64,000 bases of DNA from Bacteroidota bacterium. GTDB taxonomy: Bacteria; Bacteroidota; Bacteroidia; B-17B0; Aurantibacillaceae. The notes under the pieces are model-generated. The model saw nothing but the letters and a program-made list of their open reading frames with translations. It had not been told where the DNA came from and made no database searches. Of the stretch, positions 13,454-49,488 are shown piece by piece. Position 1 is the first letter of the stretch. Each line of letters opens with the position of its first letter. Location of the stretch: contig JAFLBH010000002.1 in assembly GCA_017303905.1 (NCBI GenBank), positions 558,001 to 622,000 of the forward strand. Reading direction: 5' to 3'. Both the position numbers and the translations under genes were made by a program.

Positions 13454-14143
13454 ATGTATACTGATATTCTTAAAAACAAAAGCATTTTCATCTCAAGAAA
13501 AATTGAAAACACAAGCATTTTTAACAAACTTATTACAGAATATGATGTAAGTTTAAATGCTACTTCACTCATTAGCATAGTTCGAATTCCTTTTTCGTAT
13601 ACACCAAAAACTGATTGGATTTTTTTCACAAGCAAGAATGCTATCAATTTTTTCTTTGCTCAAAATCCTGACATAAATGACTCAATTAAATATGGCGTTA
13701 TCAGTAATTCATCAGCCAATGAGCTTAAATTACATAAAAAAGAAGCTCATTTTATTGGTCAGGGTACGGATCTTTTAAAAATCGCGAAAACATTCAGAGA
13801 AACACTAGGAAATGCAAGTGTACTTTTTCCACAAGCCATGGATTCCATGCAAACCATTCAAAAACAATTGGCATTTAGTAACACTGTTTACAATTTATAC
13901 ACTTACAAAACAATTATCCAAACCAATATCAACGTTCCTTATGCCGACATCTTAGTATTTACCAGTCCTTCTAACGTAACTGCATACTATAATCAATACA
14001 AACCGGATAGCAGGCAAATTATTATAGGTATGGGAAACTCAACTAAATATAGGCTTTCGGAATTTGGAGTTAAAAATGTTTTGGTTCCTGCGGAGTTTAG
14101 TGAAAACGGTTTATACAAGTGTATTATTGACATTTGTCAATAA
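13454..14143 (+). CDS. hemD: Uroporphyrinogen-III synthase (HemD-like)
   Basis: 229 residues with the two-lobed Rossmann-like layout of HemD. The first lobe has DWIFFTSKNAINFFFAQ. The linker reads VLFPQAMDSMQTIQKQL, and the second lobe has YADILVFTSPSNVTAYYNQY followed by IIIGMGNSTKYRLSEFGV, matching the family's FTSxxxV and IG..T...L...G motifs. It would cyclise hydroxymethylbilane to uroporphyrinogen III in haem synthesis. The family diverges strongly in sequence, so the call rests on pattern and size. No other haem gene is adjacent. Confidence 0.8.
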   Translation: MYTDILKNKSIFISRKIENTSIFNKLITEYDVSLNATSLISIVRIPFSYTPKTDWIFFTSKNAINFFFAQNPDINDSIKYGVISNSSANELKLHKKEAHFIGQGTDLLKIAKTFRETLGNASVLFPQAMDSMQTIQKQLAFSNTVYNLYTYKTIIQTNINVPYADILVFTSPSNVTAYYNQYKPDSRQIIIGMGNSTKYRLSEFGVKNVLVPAEFSENGLYKCIIDICQ

Positions 14144-32706: not shown

Positions 32707-33339
32707 TCAGAAATCGCTGAGGAGTTTGATTTCGTTGCGGTACAAGACTAATTTTTTCTCGTTTTCGAGTTGCTTTAACAAGCGAGAAATAACTACGCGG
32801 CTCGTTCCTAATTCTTCCGCAATTTGATTATGGGAAAGCTGAATAGCGGATTTACCGGTAACTTTAGATTTATTCTTTAAATATTTTATTAAACGCTGAT
32901 CGAGCTTATGAAACGCGATACTTTCCAATGAGCGTAATAATTCATTAAAACGTTGCGTGAAGCTATTGAAAATATAACTTTTCCAGCTTGGATATTTAGT
33001 TAACCACTCATCAAGTTTTTCATGAGGGATGGCTACTAATTCAACATTATCTTCAGCAATGGCCTTAATTTCACTTTTGCGCGCTTCCATGCAACAGGTA
33101 TAAGCCATGGCGCAACTTTCATTCGAACTTAAATAATACAATAGGATTTCATTATCCTCCTCATCTTTTCGCATCACACGAATCGTTCCGCTTATAATTA
33201 AAGGCATGAACTTGATGTTTTTATTGTAATCAATAATTACATCGCCTTCCTTAAAAGACATGAATTTGCCTTCTTTCTCAATTTCTTCAATGAGTTTTAA
33301 CTCCAGAAAATTGCGCAATCTTTCTTTTAGATCTTTCAT
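32707..33339 (-). CDS. Crp/Fnr-family regulator with Cys cluster, end of sulfur operon
   Basis: 210 residues with an N-terminal cyclic-nucleotide-binding-like barrel, a dimerisation helix near 110-140 and a C-terminal winged helix with AIQLSHNQIAEELGTSRVVISRLLKQLENEKKL. The recognition helix has Val-Val-Ile-Ser-Arg in place of the Glu-based FNR/CRP reading residues. The barrel lacks the cAMP-phosphate Arg-Ala signature. Instead a loop carries Cys76, Cys82 and Cys83 (ESCAMAYTCCM), a plausible thiol/persulfide or metal switch. It is the ninth gene of the sulfur operon (40-bp gap after soxB-like). It is the best candidate to bind the TGTAAC dyads upstream of this and four other units; this is inference. 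Confidence 0.85.
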   Translation of the reverse strand: MKDLKERLRNFLELKLIEEIEKEGKFMSFKEGDVIIDYNKNIKFMPLIISGTIRVMRKDEEDNEILLYYLSSNESCAMAYTCCMEARKSEIKAIAEDNVELVAIPHEKLDEWLTKYPSWKSYIFNSFTQRFNELLRSLESIAFHKLDQRLIKYLKNKSKVTGKSAIQLSHNQIAEELGTSRVVISRLLKQLENEKKLVLYRNEIKLLSDF

Positions 33340-45342: not shown

Positions 45343-47121
45343 TTAAGCCATCGCCATTAATTGATTCCTATACTTATCAAGTATACTGGATTTGGAAAGA
45401 AAACCAATGTATAAACCATTTTCAACTACAGGCAGATTCCATTGTCCGGATTCCTCGAACTTTCTCATAATTGTAAAGATATCTTCATTCAACTCAATAA
45501 TTGTAGATGGCTTTTGCATCATTTCGCGTGCAATAATTTTGTCGTATAATTCAGGATTAAACATTTCTTCGCGTATACTATCGAGGTAGATAATGCCAAT
45601 CAATTTATTATTTTTCTTTACTACGGGAAATGTATTGCGCTTTGAGTGTTTTATTACTTCTACAATTTCACGTAGAGTTAATTTGAAATGAATAACGGAA
45701 AAATCGGTTTCAATTACTTCCTTAATCGAAATTTTACTTAGAATGCTTGCATCCTTATCCTCTGAAACAATAGCTCCCATCTTCTTTAGCCGCTTTATTT
45801 CAAGCGAATCGGGTTGGAAATATTTTGCAATAACATAACTAAAGGAAGAAACAATCATGAGAGGGATAATTAATTCATATCCCCCGGTTATTTCTGCAAT
45901 TAAAAAAATACCTGTTAAAGGTGCATGAAAAACTCCACTTAAAATTCCGGCCATTGCCACAATAGTGAAGTTTACCAAAGGAATATTATCAAACCCAAGC
46001 AAACGCAGAAAAAAAGCAAATGCAAAACCAAGATAAGCTCCAACAAACAAGGATGGCGCAAAGTTACCGCCATTACCTCCACTCCCCAGTGTGATAGCGG
46101 CAGCAACCGATTTTAACAACATAACTGAAAGAATAAAAATCAAAACAATCCATTGATTATTTATCGATTCAAATAAAACGCTATTATGATACAATTGCTC
46201 TACATTCATTTCCGACAAGGATTTGATACTTTCATAACCCTCTCCGAACAAGGAAGGAAACAAGGCAAAAAGCAAAGCCAAAGCCGAACTCCCAATCACC
46301 CATTTTGTAATGCGCGAATTAACTCTTGAAAAAAACTGATCTACCCTTTCAAAAAAGTTAACATAGTAAAGGGAAATGATTCCTGACAACAAGCCCAATA
46401 AAATATAAAATAACACATTGTGGTAATCGAAGGGTTGTTTAAGTTTAAAAAAAAGCAAACTGCTTTCGTGCAAAATAATTTTAGACAGTAATGCTCCGGA
46501 AGCGCTTGCAATTAATAAAGGAATGAAAGCACTTATACTAATATCCACCAAAATCACTTCGAGAGCAAACAATACACCGGCTATTGGTGCATTAAAAGCG
46601 CCTGCAATTCCACCGGCGGCTCCTGCAGCGAGTAACATTGTTCTATCCTTATAATTAAGTTTATAGGTACGCGCGAAATTAGAACCAATGGCTGAACCTG
46701 TGCTCACAATAGGCGACTCTAAACCAGCAGAACCTCCAAATCCGATGGTAAGTCCACTCGTAATTATATGAGAATACATTTGATGGAATGGTAAAAAACT
46801 ACTGCGCTTAGCAATCGCATACAAAATATAAGAGGCCCCTTTATGAATTTGGTTACGAAAAAAGTACGAAACAATTACAACAGTTACACCAATACCAATT
46901 AATGGCAGCAGCAAATAAATATACTTGAAATCTATTTTTAAAAGATAGCCTTCGACTAAGTAGTGCTTTATCGCCGAAACAAATAACTTAAGAATAACCG
47001 CAGCCAACCCCGCGCTTAATCCAACTAAAATACTGGCGAATATCAAAAATTGCTTTTCGCTGGTTTTCTCATGAATCCAGTTAATGAGTTTTTCAACAAT
47101 ATTATGCTTCTTTAAGTTCAT
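45343..47121 (-). CDS. ClC-family chloride channel/transporter with CBS pair
   Basis: 592 residues: about ten hydrophobic helices (about 20-440) then two CBS domains (about 455-590). Selectivity motifs are GFGGSAGLESPIVSTGSAIGSN, with the gating Glu in GLESP, and LGSGGNGGNFAPSLFVGAYLG. The retained gating Glu fits either a proton-coupled antiporter or a channel. The C-terminal CBS pair (KRNTFPVVKKNNKLIGIIYLDSI and QWNLPVVENGLYIGFLSKSSIL) would sense nucleotides. It has its own perfect -7 element and no sulfur-regulon dyad at the expected position, so it is probably not in that regulon. Confidence 0.92.
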   Translation of the reverse strand: MNLKKHNIVEKLINWIHEKTSEKQFLIFASILVGLSAGLAAVILKLFVSAIKHYLVEGYLLKIDFKYIYLLLPLIGIGVTVVIVSYFFRNQIHKGASYILYAIAKRSSFLPFHQMYSHIITSGLTIGFGGSAGLESPIVSTGSAIGSNFARTYKLNYKDRTMLLAAGAAGGIAGAFNAPIAGVLFALEVILVDISISAFIPLLIASASGALLSKIILHESSLLFFKLKQPFDYHNVLFYILLGLLSGIISLYYVNFFERVDQFFSRVNSRITKWVIGSSALALLFALFPSLFGEGYESIKSLSEMNVEQLYHNSVLFESINNQWIVLIFILSVMLLKSVAAAITLGSGGNGGNFAPSLFVGAYLGFAFAFFLRLLGFDNIPLVNFTIVAMAGILSGVFHAPLTGIFLIAEITGGYELIIPLMIVSSFSYVIAKYFQPDSLEIKRLKKMGAIVSEDKDASILSKISIKEVIETDFSVIHFKLTLREIVEVIKHSKRNTFPVVKKNNKLIGIIYLDSIREEMFNPELYDKIIAREMMQKPSTIIELNEDIFTIMRKFEESGQWNLPVVENGLYIGFLSKSSILDKYRNQLMAMA

Positions 47122-47160
47122 TTGTCGGGCCTATAACACATCAAACAAGATTTCCCGACC

Positions 47161-47168
47161 CAAATATA
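47161..47168 (-). promoter_or_regulatory. Promoter -7 element for the ClC gene
   Basis: Minus-strand TATATTTG, a perfect TAnnTTTG, 40 bp upstream of the ATG at 47121. The leader contains a short inverted repeat (GTCGGG ... CCCGAC, within 47125-47160). Confidence 0.5.
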
Positions 47169-47181
47169 GCATTTAATAAAA

Positions 47182-48516
47182 TTATGCCGCTTCTTCTTCT
47201 GATTTTGATTTAAAGAGTTGTATTAAACTATTCCCTTCATCTTCAAAGAAAAACTTTTTTTGCCCGAATGCCGGCTTTAAATCGTCCATCCATATCGCAT
47301 TTTTGTCATATTCGGCGAAAAATGGTCTAGCCGCCCAATCAGGATTGCGTCCTTGCAACATTCTTAAAACAAAATATTTCTTCCCGTTAATTTGAGTGAT
47401 GCCTAATACCTGAACTTTACCGGGCTGACAAGACATACTTGGTCCGCGTACAGTTCTGCAAACTCCACTTACCGATTGGTAAGCTTTTCGGAAAACCTCC
47501 CAAGCATTTTCCAAAGTTACTGCAAAATATTCCTGTGCACCGGTATCACGTGGTATGAACATATAATAAGGAATGCAATTTAAATTCACTTGCTTTCGCC
47601 ACATTTCAGCCCATACTTCGGGTGAATTATTAATATGATTTAAAATTGGGGATTGGGTTCTTATTTGAACACCTATAGCACGTAAACGTTTTATGGCTTC
47701 TTTCACAATTGGTGTGTCTAACTCCACCGGATGTGAAAAATGAGCCATGATGGATAAATTAATTCCCTTTTTTATTACTGATTCAAAGAGAGCCAACATT
47801 TCATCGGCATCATCATCTGTTACAAATTTATAAGGCCAATAAGACAATGCTTTTGTTCCGATTCTGATGGTTTGTAAATTTTTTATGTCAGAATTAATGA
47901 GTGGTTCAATGTAAGTTGCCAAAATTTTCGCTTTCATTATCATTGGATCGCCACCTGTAAACAACACATCCGTAACTTCAGTATGTTCAGTTAAATATGT
48001 TTGAAGTAGCGACGCTTCCTTGCTTGCAAATTTCAATTCGTTCATACCAACAAATTGTGGCCACCGAAAACAAAAAGTGCAATAAGCATGGCAGGTTTGT
48101 CCCTGACTCGGAAAAAATAAAACAGTTTCACGGTATTTATGTTGCATGCCTTCAATTTTTTCGCCATTAATTTCCGGTACGTTATGTTCTAATTGTCCGG
48201 CCGGGTGTGGATTTAACTCATTTCTAATTTTATTGGCGCAGGCTTTTATCGCGTCTTTTGATGAATTTGTCAATATACAATTTTTCATCATTTCATAATG
48301 TGTTTCTGAAAGCATTCCTTTTTGAGGGAATGTCAATTTAAAAATCGGATCATTATCGAGATTATCCCAATTTATTAATTGCTCAATAACATAATTATTT
48401 ACCTTAAATGGTAAAACATTACCAACTACTTCAATTGCTTCCAGTTGCTGCGAATTAAGTTTATTAATCTGTGGGATACTTTTGTAATTGTGTAAAGAAT
48501 AAGCTTGCATTTTCAT
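47182..48516 (-). CDS. KamA-family radical SAM enzyme (lysine 2,3-aminomutase-like)
   Basis: About 444 residues from ATG 48516; a TTG two codons upstream (48522) is a weaker alternative. The radical SAM cluster motif is TCHAYCTFCFRW (CxxxCxxC). KamA-family features include HPAGQLEHNVPEING near the start, VTDVLFTGGDPMIMK, IRIGTKALSYWP, RTQSPILNHINNSPEVWAEMWRKQVNLNCIPYYMFIPRDTGAQEYFAV and a final C-rich SGVCRTVRGPSMSCQPG. The residues after the cluster (FRWPQF) differ from classical lysine 2,3-aminomutase, so the substrate is uncertain. Its upstream region holds an FNR-type box (48575-48588), suggesting low-oxygen or NO control by the divergent Crp-family protein. Confidence 0.8.
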   Translation of the reverse strand: MKMQAYSLHNYKSIPQINKLNSQQLEAIEVVGNVLPFKVNNYVIEQLINWDNLDNDPIFKLTFPQKGMLSETHYEMMKNCILTNSSKDAIKACANKIRNELNPHPAGQLEHNVPEINGEKIEGMQHKYRETVLFFPSQGQTCHAYCTFCFRWPQFVGMNELKFASKEASLLQTYLTEHTEVTDVLFTGGDPMIMKAKILATYIEPLINSDIKNLQTIRIGTKALSYWPYKFVTDDDADEMLALFESVIKKGINLSIMAHFSHPVELDTPIVKEAIKRLRAIGVQIRTQSPILNHINNSPEVWAEMWRKQVNLNCIPYYMFIPRDTGAQEYFAVTLENAWEVFRKAYQSVSGVCRTVRGPSMSCQPGKVQVLGITQINGKKYFVLRMLQGRNPDWAARPFFAEYDKNAIWMDDLKPAFGQKKFFFEDEGNSLIQLFKSKSEEEAA

Positions 48517-48574
48517 AATCAACAGATTTAAAAGTTAATAAGATGCAAGTAACAAAACAACAAATGGAAAGTCA

Positions 48575-48588
48575 TTGACAATCATCAA
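48575..48588. promoter_or_regulatory. FNR-type box upstream of the KamA-like gene
   Basis: TTGAC-AATC-ATCAA matches TTGAY-N4-RTCAA exactly. It is centred about 33 bp from a degenerate minus-strand -7 element (TACTTGC near 48545-48551) and about 65 bp from the kamA-like ATG. Confidence 0.5.
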
Positions 48589-48648
48589 TTAAATATCTGT
48601 GTTTGATTTTCATTCGTTAAAAAATCAAAACAAGAACTACTTATAAAT

Positions 48649-48710
48649 AAAAAAAGCCCGTTAACAATTGAATCGTTAACAGGCTTAACTAAAACAGAAC
48701 TCTTATTCGA
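48649..48710 (-). ncRNA. Candidate small RNA of about 60 nt between the KamA-like and Crp-like genes
   Basis: Three signals line up on the minus strand. A perfect FNR-type box is at 48745-48758 and a perfect -7 element TAACTTTG at 48716-48723 (centres 32 bp apart). A strong terminator follows at 48654-48686 (12-bp stem, 9-nt loop, then seven U). No gene precedes this terminator. One stem pair is G-U on the minus-strand RNA but would be C-A on a plus-strand RNA, which fixes the direction. The product would run from about 48709 to 48649. No plausible open frame is seen. It resembles the FNR-controlled small RNA idea but has no recognised family. Confidence 0.45.
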
Positions 48711-48715
48711 ATGGA

Positions 48716-48758
48716 CAAAGTTACAAAATCAATTATTGTTAAAATTGACAATTGTCAA
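48716..48758 (-). promoter_or_regulatory. FNR-type box and -7 element driving the candidate small RNA
   Basis: TTGAC-AATT-GTCAA (48745-48758) is a perfect 14-bp palindrome. The minus strand reads TAACTTTG at 48716-48723, a perfect TAnnTTTG. On the plus strand the same box lies 35 bp before the Crp-like ATG and 33 bp from a degenerate TATACTTA, so autoregulation is also possible. Confidence 0.55.
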
Positions 48759-48792
48759 TCCATGAAACAAATAAAAACATTATACTTAAAAT

Positions 48793-49488
48793 ATGGAATT
48801 TAATATAGAGAACTATCACTTAAAATCAACGGCACTACTTGATTACTTATCGGTAACTGAAAAGAATTTTATTAAAAATAAAATTCAGAGAAAAGAATTT
48901 AACAAAGGAGCTTATTTATTTAGAGAAAAAAGTTATCCTAAAGGTATTTACGTAATAAGAAAGGGAAAGGTTAAAATTTTTCAAACCAACAGTGAGGGTA
49001 AACAGAGCATTGTTTACATATATAAGAAGGGAGATTATTTTGGATACCGGCCAATTTTAGCCGGTGAAGCACAACCTGTTTCTGCGGTAGCCATGGATAA
49101 TGTTGTAATAAGCTTCATACCAAAAGAAACTTTTATGGAGCTGCTCGAATTTTCAGGTAATCTTGCCAATAAACTACTCGTTTCATTATCGAAAGAATTT
49201 TCGGTTTGGATTAATAAGATGACCGTGTTTTCGCAATTTGGTGTAAAAGAAAGAGTAGCATTAAGTCTATTAATCCTCAATGAAGTTTATCGTGTATCCA
49301 ATGATAACAATAAAAAAGTAATCATTAATATAAGCAGAAATGATTTTGCGGGATTTGTCGGAACGGCCAAAGAAACACTCGTTAGAATGCTTCGTTTTTA
49401 TAAAGATGAAAACATGATTGTATCAAAAGGAACAAAAATCATTCTTCAAGATGAAGAAGCTATTCGTCATCTGGTAGATGGATTCTAA
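48793..49488 (+). CDS. Second Crp/Fnr-family transcription regulator
   Basis: 231 residues. The N-terminal cyclic-nucleotide-like barrel (FNKGAYLFREKSYPKGIYVIRKGKVKIFQTNSEGKQSIVYIYKKGDYFGYRPILAGE) is followed by a dimer helix (NKLLVSLSKEFSVWINKMTVFSQFGVKERVALSLLIL) and a winged helix with VIINISRNDFAGFVGTAKETLVRMLRFYKDENMI. The recognition helix keeps Glu and Arg (KETLVR) as in proteins that read TTGAC/TGTGA half sites, which fits the two adjacent TTGAY-N4-RTCAA boxes. There is no N-terminal Cys cluster, so it is not a 4Fe-4S FNR; haem- or NO-sensing DNR/HcpR-type behaviour is possible. Confidence 0.85.
   Translation: MEFNIENYHLKSTALLDYLSVTEKNFIKNKIQRKEFNKGAYLFREKSYPKGIYVIRKGKVKIFQTNSEGKQSIVYIYKKGDYFGYRPILAGEAQPVSAVAMDNVVISFIPKETFMELLEFSGNLANKLLVSLSKEFSVWINKMTVFSQFGVKERVALSLLILNEVYRVSNDNNKKVIINISRNDFAGFVGTAKETLVRMLRFYKDENMIVSKGTKIILQDEEAIRHLVDGF

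Follow-up and report, generated by a model that had tools for sequence, protein, structure and literature searches.

A predicted small-RNA gene sharing one Crp/Fnr-type box with the adjacent regulator gene in Bacteroidota

Within the stretch of Bacteroidota DNA analysed here (64,000 nucleotides, termed the window), a Crp/Fnr-family regulator gene and a kamA-like gene flank a short interval in which a sequence-only reading had placed a candidate small RNA on the minus strand. The locus raises the question of whether this interval encodes a regulatory RNA, which protein and signal would control it, and on what it would act. The features on which our answer is built are as follows.

48793..49488, plus strand: Crp/Fnr-family regulator (crp), 231 aa, no cysteine
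48781..48788, plus strand: TATACTTA, -7-like element of crp, 22 bp from the shared box and at the same position in orthologs
48744..48759, no strand assigned: 16-bp perfect palindrome ATTGACAATTGTCAAT, the Crp/Fnr-type box common to two divergent promoters
48716..48723, minus strand: TAACTTTG, 21 bp from the box, assigned to the small-RNA promoter as its -7 element (sigma-ABfr type, TAnnTTTG)
48647..48712, minus strand: putative small-RNA gene, about 60-66 nt, noncoding, start and end predicted
48687..48712, minus strand: 5' region that stays single-stranded in the centroid fold, presumably the seed (...GAGUUCUGUUUUAGUU)
48654..48686, minus strand: intrinsic-terminator hairpin, from fold and covariation
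48647..48653, minus strand: terminator U-tract
48575..48588, minus strand: second box, TTGATGATTGTCAA, before kamA
48545..48552, minus strand: TTACTTGC, -7-like element of a separate kamA promoter, kept in the kamA promoters of relatives
47182..48516, minus strand: kamA-like radical SAM gene, starting with ATG at 48516 and preceded by a box and promoter of its own

The divergent promoters and the predicted RNA

The core of the box, TTGACAATTGTCAA, occupies 48745-48758 within the 16-bp perfect palindrome. The 14-bp FNR-type palindrome, TAACTTTG, their centres exactly 32 bp apart, and the terminator had all been pointed out from the sequence alone, and all are in place in the window; the short geneless interval that had been put at about 60 nt is likewise real, comprising about 65 nt of noncoding DNA that holds no ORF of at least 60 aa. 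If the start of the RNA is placed, by inference, 4-7 nt past the -7 element, the centre of the box lies about 40-41.5 bp from it in the window and in orthologs. This is the position of a class II activator, the site of which is centred near -41. On the plus strand the AUG of crp is 41 nt from the centre of the box, as in most orthologs, and since the distance is that of class II on both strands, one dimer would fit both promoters. The position of the -7-like element of crp implies that its mRNA is leaderless or has a very short leader; in Bacteroides such leaders are known but uncommon, with about 3.7% of 5' UTRs shorter than 10 nt (PMC7366714).

In this phylum, TAnnTTTG is established as the -7 element (PMC6847099). 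The combination of box and TAnnTTTG at 20-24 bp is found three times in the 3.95-Mb genome and the reversed pattern zero times, against a chance expectation of about 0.2 per 3.95-Mb genome in a Markov simulation trained on the window. Only the crp-adjacent pair among the three is followed by a terminator.

The other two such promoters in this genome, which lack a terminator (L035 and L037, on contigs C1 and C3), precede acyl-CoA-synthetase-like and YiaA-like genes, named by eye from their sequence, and a similar YiaA-like gene with the same promoter is located near crp in G070 (L136:208). Besides the site at crp, only one further site in the genome matches the strict palindrome TTGAYADHTRTCAA, making two in all. 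It reads TTGACATTTGTCAA, occupies 14127-14140 of the window, where two ORFs meet a short way ahead of an RND efflux operon, and has no -7 element at the right spacing.

The predicted transcript folds with -19.6 kcal/mol (z = -4.57), a stability reached by none of 200 shuffled sequences. Its terminator hairpin has 15 pairs and a 3-nt loop and is followed by TTTTTTT. The hairpin contains a U-G pair that is possible only in the minus-strand RNA and is C-G in the sister species, and the U-tract points in the same direction, so that the strand assignment of the sequence-only reading is upheld. A scan of the whole window against Rfam 15 gave no match to FnrS or any other family. The predicted RNA has its own promoter and terminator, is noncoding and is conserved independently of its neighbours, as expected of a trans-acting small RNA. 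Its retention in at least 15 related species makes it very probable that this is a genuine regulatory RNA, hitherto undescribed, and its gene would be of a known kind, a small RNA activated by a transcription factor, belonging to a new family. A literature search, with most subscription papers outside its reach, found no paper on a Crp/Fnr-controlled small RNA in Bacteroidota.

Conservation of the unit and constraint on the RNA

Orthologs of crp were gathered from whole genomes and named contigs, all from uncultured Bacteroidota, and 26 close orthologs (at least 48% identity) were kept after redundancy was removed. Nearly all have a box of the same type upstream of crp, centred 40-44 nt before the ATG in most. 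On the RNA side, 16 of the 26 loci keep the box, a spacing of 21-22 bp, TAnnTTTG (5 or 6 of 6 positions) and, after a short unpaired segment, a terminator with a stability of at least 10 kcal/mol, and in at least 12 orthologs the -7 element matches at 6 of 6 positions 21-22 bp from the box. Box, -7 element and hairpin, which had been expected to persist in syntenic relatives, are accordingly present in 15 other species. Variants include the use of a second nearby box (L050, L087), longer hairpins (L053, L056) and an off-spacing copy of the unit (L043). The adjacent box-plus-terminator unit is absent from the close orthologs L048, L052, L054, L091, L092, and L098, of which L052 has copies farther off, and the paralogous Crp clade (37-43% identity) shows none of the box, -7 element and terminator arrangement. 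The hairpin evolves by compensatory substitutions: 98.2% of its pairs are standard, compared with at most 59% in slid controls, and double changes are found at six of ten pairs.

A covariance model built from promoter plus RNA was used to find further copies. All 12 genomes of the family with matches (E of about 0.001 or better) carry a crp ortholog, a co-occurrence that is partly by construction as the model was built beside crp, although this does not apply to the distant copies. Outside the family, true matches among 395 genomes of the class were limited to G306 and G331 (the loci L042 and L040, respectively), both crp-adjacent and from one other family; two matches in G196, with neither box nor crp, were rejected as false. 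As far as we have searched, the RNA is confined to one clade of Crp-type regulator.

The window genome has one copy of the RNA, and several are present in G085, G067, and G070, where the extra copies lie 1-4 kb from crp, and in G076, where they are on another contig. In three of these genomes the copy before kamA has a near-identical RNA, CGAUAWACUUUUCCAUWAUAA followed by the CCCGCUGA stem, and the same three show drift in the spacer that separates the box from the -7 element. When 23 RNAs from different loci were compared, the 5' region gave a mean similarity z of 0.81 with 18% of pairs above 2, the spacer a mean of 0.28 with 5.5% of pairs above 2, and the region after the terminator a mean of -0.10. 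Among all 7-mers the best is UUUUCAU, which 7 of 21 RNAs contain (P = 0.002 against the best 7-mer of shuffled sets), and UUUCAU is found in 9 of 21, where 1.6 are expected. The 5' region of the window RNA (GAGUUCUGUUUUAGUU) lacks UUUUCAU and is shared only with the sister species; stretches similar to it are seen in G076:C46 and L055. A second pair of related RNAs, with a conserved UUUCUYYUUGGGUGAUUAAAUCUG (L136:9125 on the plus strand and G085:C149:24857-24972), has the same promoter type and stands in front of a GNAT/nitrilase gene.

These comparisons bear on whether the RNA has a function at all, given that a symmetrical site might simply fire both ways, with the terminator merely guarding kamA or other genes against the product. 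The box is indeed symmetrical and needed by crp, the hairpin is the best conserved part beside crp, and the 5' sequences are unlike between most crp-adjacent copies. However, the -7 element on the RNA side is usually a perfect TAnnTTTG and better than that of crp, the copies at L135:9128 and L136:9125 have their own box and are not divergent from a gene start, and the RNA is constrained where the spacer drifts and is enriched in UUUUCAU. We therefore regard insulated divergent noise as an unlikely explanation.

Neighbouring genes and the signal of the regulator

The RNA and kamA are on the same strand, and the hairpin could be a conditional terminator 5' of kamA or of a small ORF with read-through dependent on a signal. 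In L040 and L042, an ORF of 65-75 aa with a DSDD motif begins a few nucleotides past the U-tract, leaving no room for another promoter, and in these two the RNA might also be a leader. Against attenuation in general, the window and three other genomes have the kamA box and the conserved TTACTTGC promoter downstream of the terminator, no alternative antiterminator fold was seen, and in most species there is no ORF next to the RNA or the gene there is unrelated or convergent, as with the aspartate decarboxylase in L049. In many species the RNA is followed by kamA, in others by a gene for a ClC channel, a GNAT/nitrilase, a trehalase or an MscS channel. Because the unit adjoins crp whichever gene comes next, the RNA is not a kamA leader, and that candidate was rejected on account of the separate kamA promoter and the variable downstream gene; the wider attenuator reading we consider quite improbable. 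Four species have small ORFs with the DSDD motif (65-90 aa, minus strand) between crp and the gene that follows, at L042:3633-3857, L040:3656-3850, L054:3600-3794, and L057:3626-3892.

Genes of the kamA-like, ClC, GNAT/nitrilase, MscS, Na+/H+ exchanger and trehalose types recur around crp (45343-48516 in the window, and in orthologs), which suggests that Bacteroidota have a so far uncharacterised regulon for ion or osmotic stress. From these neighbours, the signal would be ion, turgor or osmotic stress and not respiration, with ion or osmotic stress favoured over oxygen. The regulator itself has no cysteine in the window, nor in nearly all close orthologs, and so cannot carry the iron-sulfur cluster of FNR. 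The residues that contact cAMP look absent when the pocket is aligned, the nearest solved relative, 2gau, is of the Crp/Fnr family and gives no ligand, and haem or NO may be the ligand.

These data also bear on the proposal, made from the sequence alone, that the RNA responds to oxygen or nitric oxide in the manner of FnrS. In its favour are an FNR-like box (TTGAC-N4-GTCAA) in class II geometry and the small size of the RNA, with its unpaired 5' part and its terminator, and the short RNA with an activator-dependent promoter is retained here. The control by oxygen or NO and the analogy to FnrS are not, since the adjacent regulator lacks cysteine and hence a [4Fe-4S] cluster, the box-bearing neighbours are not respiratory genes, and Rfam gave no match; we consider such a response highly improbable. 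The promoter geometry had in addition been likened to that of sulfur promoters, but these do not carry this box: a search for TTGAYN4RTCAA within one mismatch before sox-type genes gave nothing convincing, with no more matches than in shuffled sequences. A second Crp-family gene (32707-33339 of the window) is part of a sulfur-oxidation cluster with a SoxA-type cytochrome and a rhodanese, and this cluster contains no strict copy of the crp box.

Proposed circuit, candidate targets and known systems

To our knowledge, few Bacteroidota small RNAs have a known regulator. From synteny it is plausible that the adjacent regulator is the activator of the RNA, and we propose, as the probable reading of the locus, that the small-RNA gene is activated by the adjacent Crp-family protein and that its product acts in trans by base-pairing to block translation starts. 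In this mechanism a dimer would bind the palindrome about 41 bp upstream of two divergent starts, in the class II position, and probably switches crp and the RNA together. On the plus side, the regulator would turn on its own gene, probably as a leaderless mRNA, while on the minus side the same dimer would activate the terminated RNA of about 65 nt. The U-rich single-stranded 5' region of this RNA would most likely pair in trans at the translation starts of mRNAs and so repress their translation, and in this way the RNA would widen the output of a regulator with very few direct sites. Pairing at starts is suggested by two considerations, namely that Bacteroidota mRNAs have no Shine-Dalgarno sites (PMC6847099), and the analogy with FopS of B. 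thetaiotaomicron, which has a 5' seed and a terminator and represses translation by pairing at start regions (PMC11697453).

The complement of UUUUCAU is AUGAAAA, which reads as a start codon with A-rich codons, those for lysine for example, behind it. This raises the more specific, and to us rather doubtful, idea of an anti-start-codon family of small RNAs in which UUUUCAU seeds pair with AUGAAAA starts and damp many mRNAs at once, the single symmetrical site of the regulator switching both its own gene and the RNA. If that were true, the affected mRNAs would begin with Met-Lys, which is common in exported proteins. An alternative use of the motif, in which ATGAAAA would open a reading frame on the other strand, was rejected because the peptides, read by eye, differ in length and sequence.

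Individual targets were also sought. In G000 and G006 the seed pairs at 13 of 14 positions with the 5' UTR of ftn just before the AUG, but this pairing, which had looked promising in the window genome, was rejected as evidence for ferritin as a target: other species do not conserve it, and an equally good match is reached by 6% of random 60-mers from the window. Against the starts of kamA or crp the RNA pairs no better than shuffled RNAs do, and for UUUUCCAU, searched in three genomes, the numbers of matches equal those of controls, with no start-codon target in common.

The essence of the proposed circuit is that, with one box for both, the regulator would never be made apart from the RNA, by which few direct sites could control many genes. 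With a likely activator adjacent, a defined promoter and many species, the whole circuit is testable in one locus, and the enrichment of UUUUCAU suggests how small RNAs might choose their targets in a phylum without Shine-Dalgarno sites.

FnrS of Escherichia coli, which is activated by FNR, is likewise a short intergenic RNA that is unpaired in its 5' part and ends in an intrinsic terminator, and its promoter carries an FNR-type palindrome placed as in class II. It is about 120 nt long, compared with about 65 nt here. Unlike FnrS, the present RNA has no Rfam homology and no link to oxygen, its promoter is of the sigma-ABfr type, and its regulator is without cysteine, adjacent, and under the same box. 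CyaR and Spot 42 are CRP-controlled small RNAs of enterobacteria, and there too a Crp-family protein widens its regulon through a small RNA; CRP, however, is a global cAMP sensor encoded elsewhere, whereas here a local, self-controlled regulator shares one box with the RNA. FopS and GibS, as far as the accessible part of their description goes (PMC11697453), differ from the present RNA in sequence, FopS being deposited in Rfam, where our RNA has no match, and FopS comes from another lineage and has no Crp-family box described for it there. Yet in that same account they are also Bacteroidota RNAs with several copies, a 5' seed directly before the terminator hairpin and sigma-ABfr promoters, and the single-stranded 5' region followed by a terminator, in several copies in relatives, gives the RNA described here the same build.
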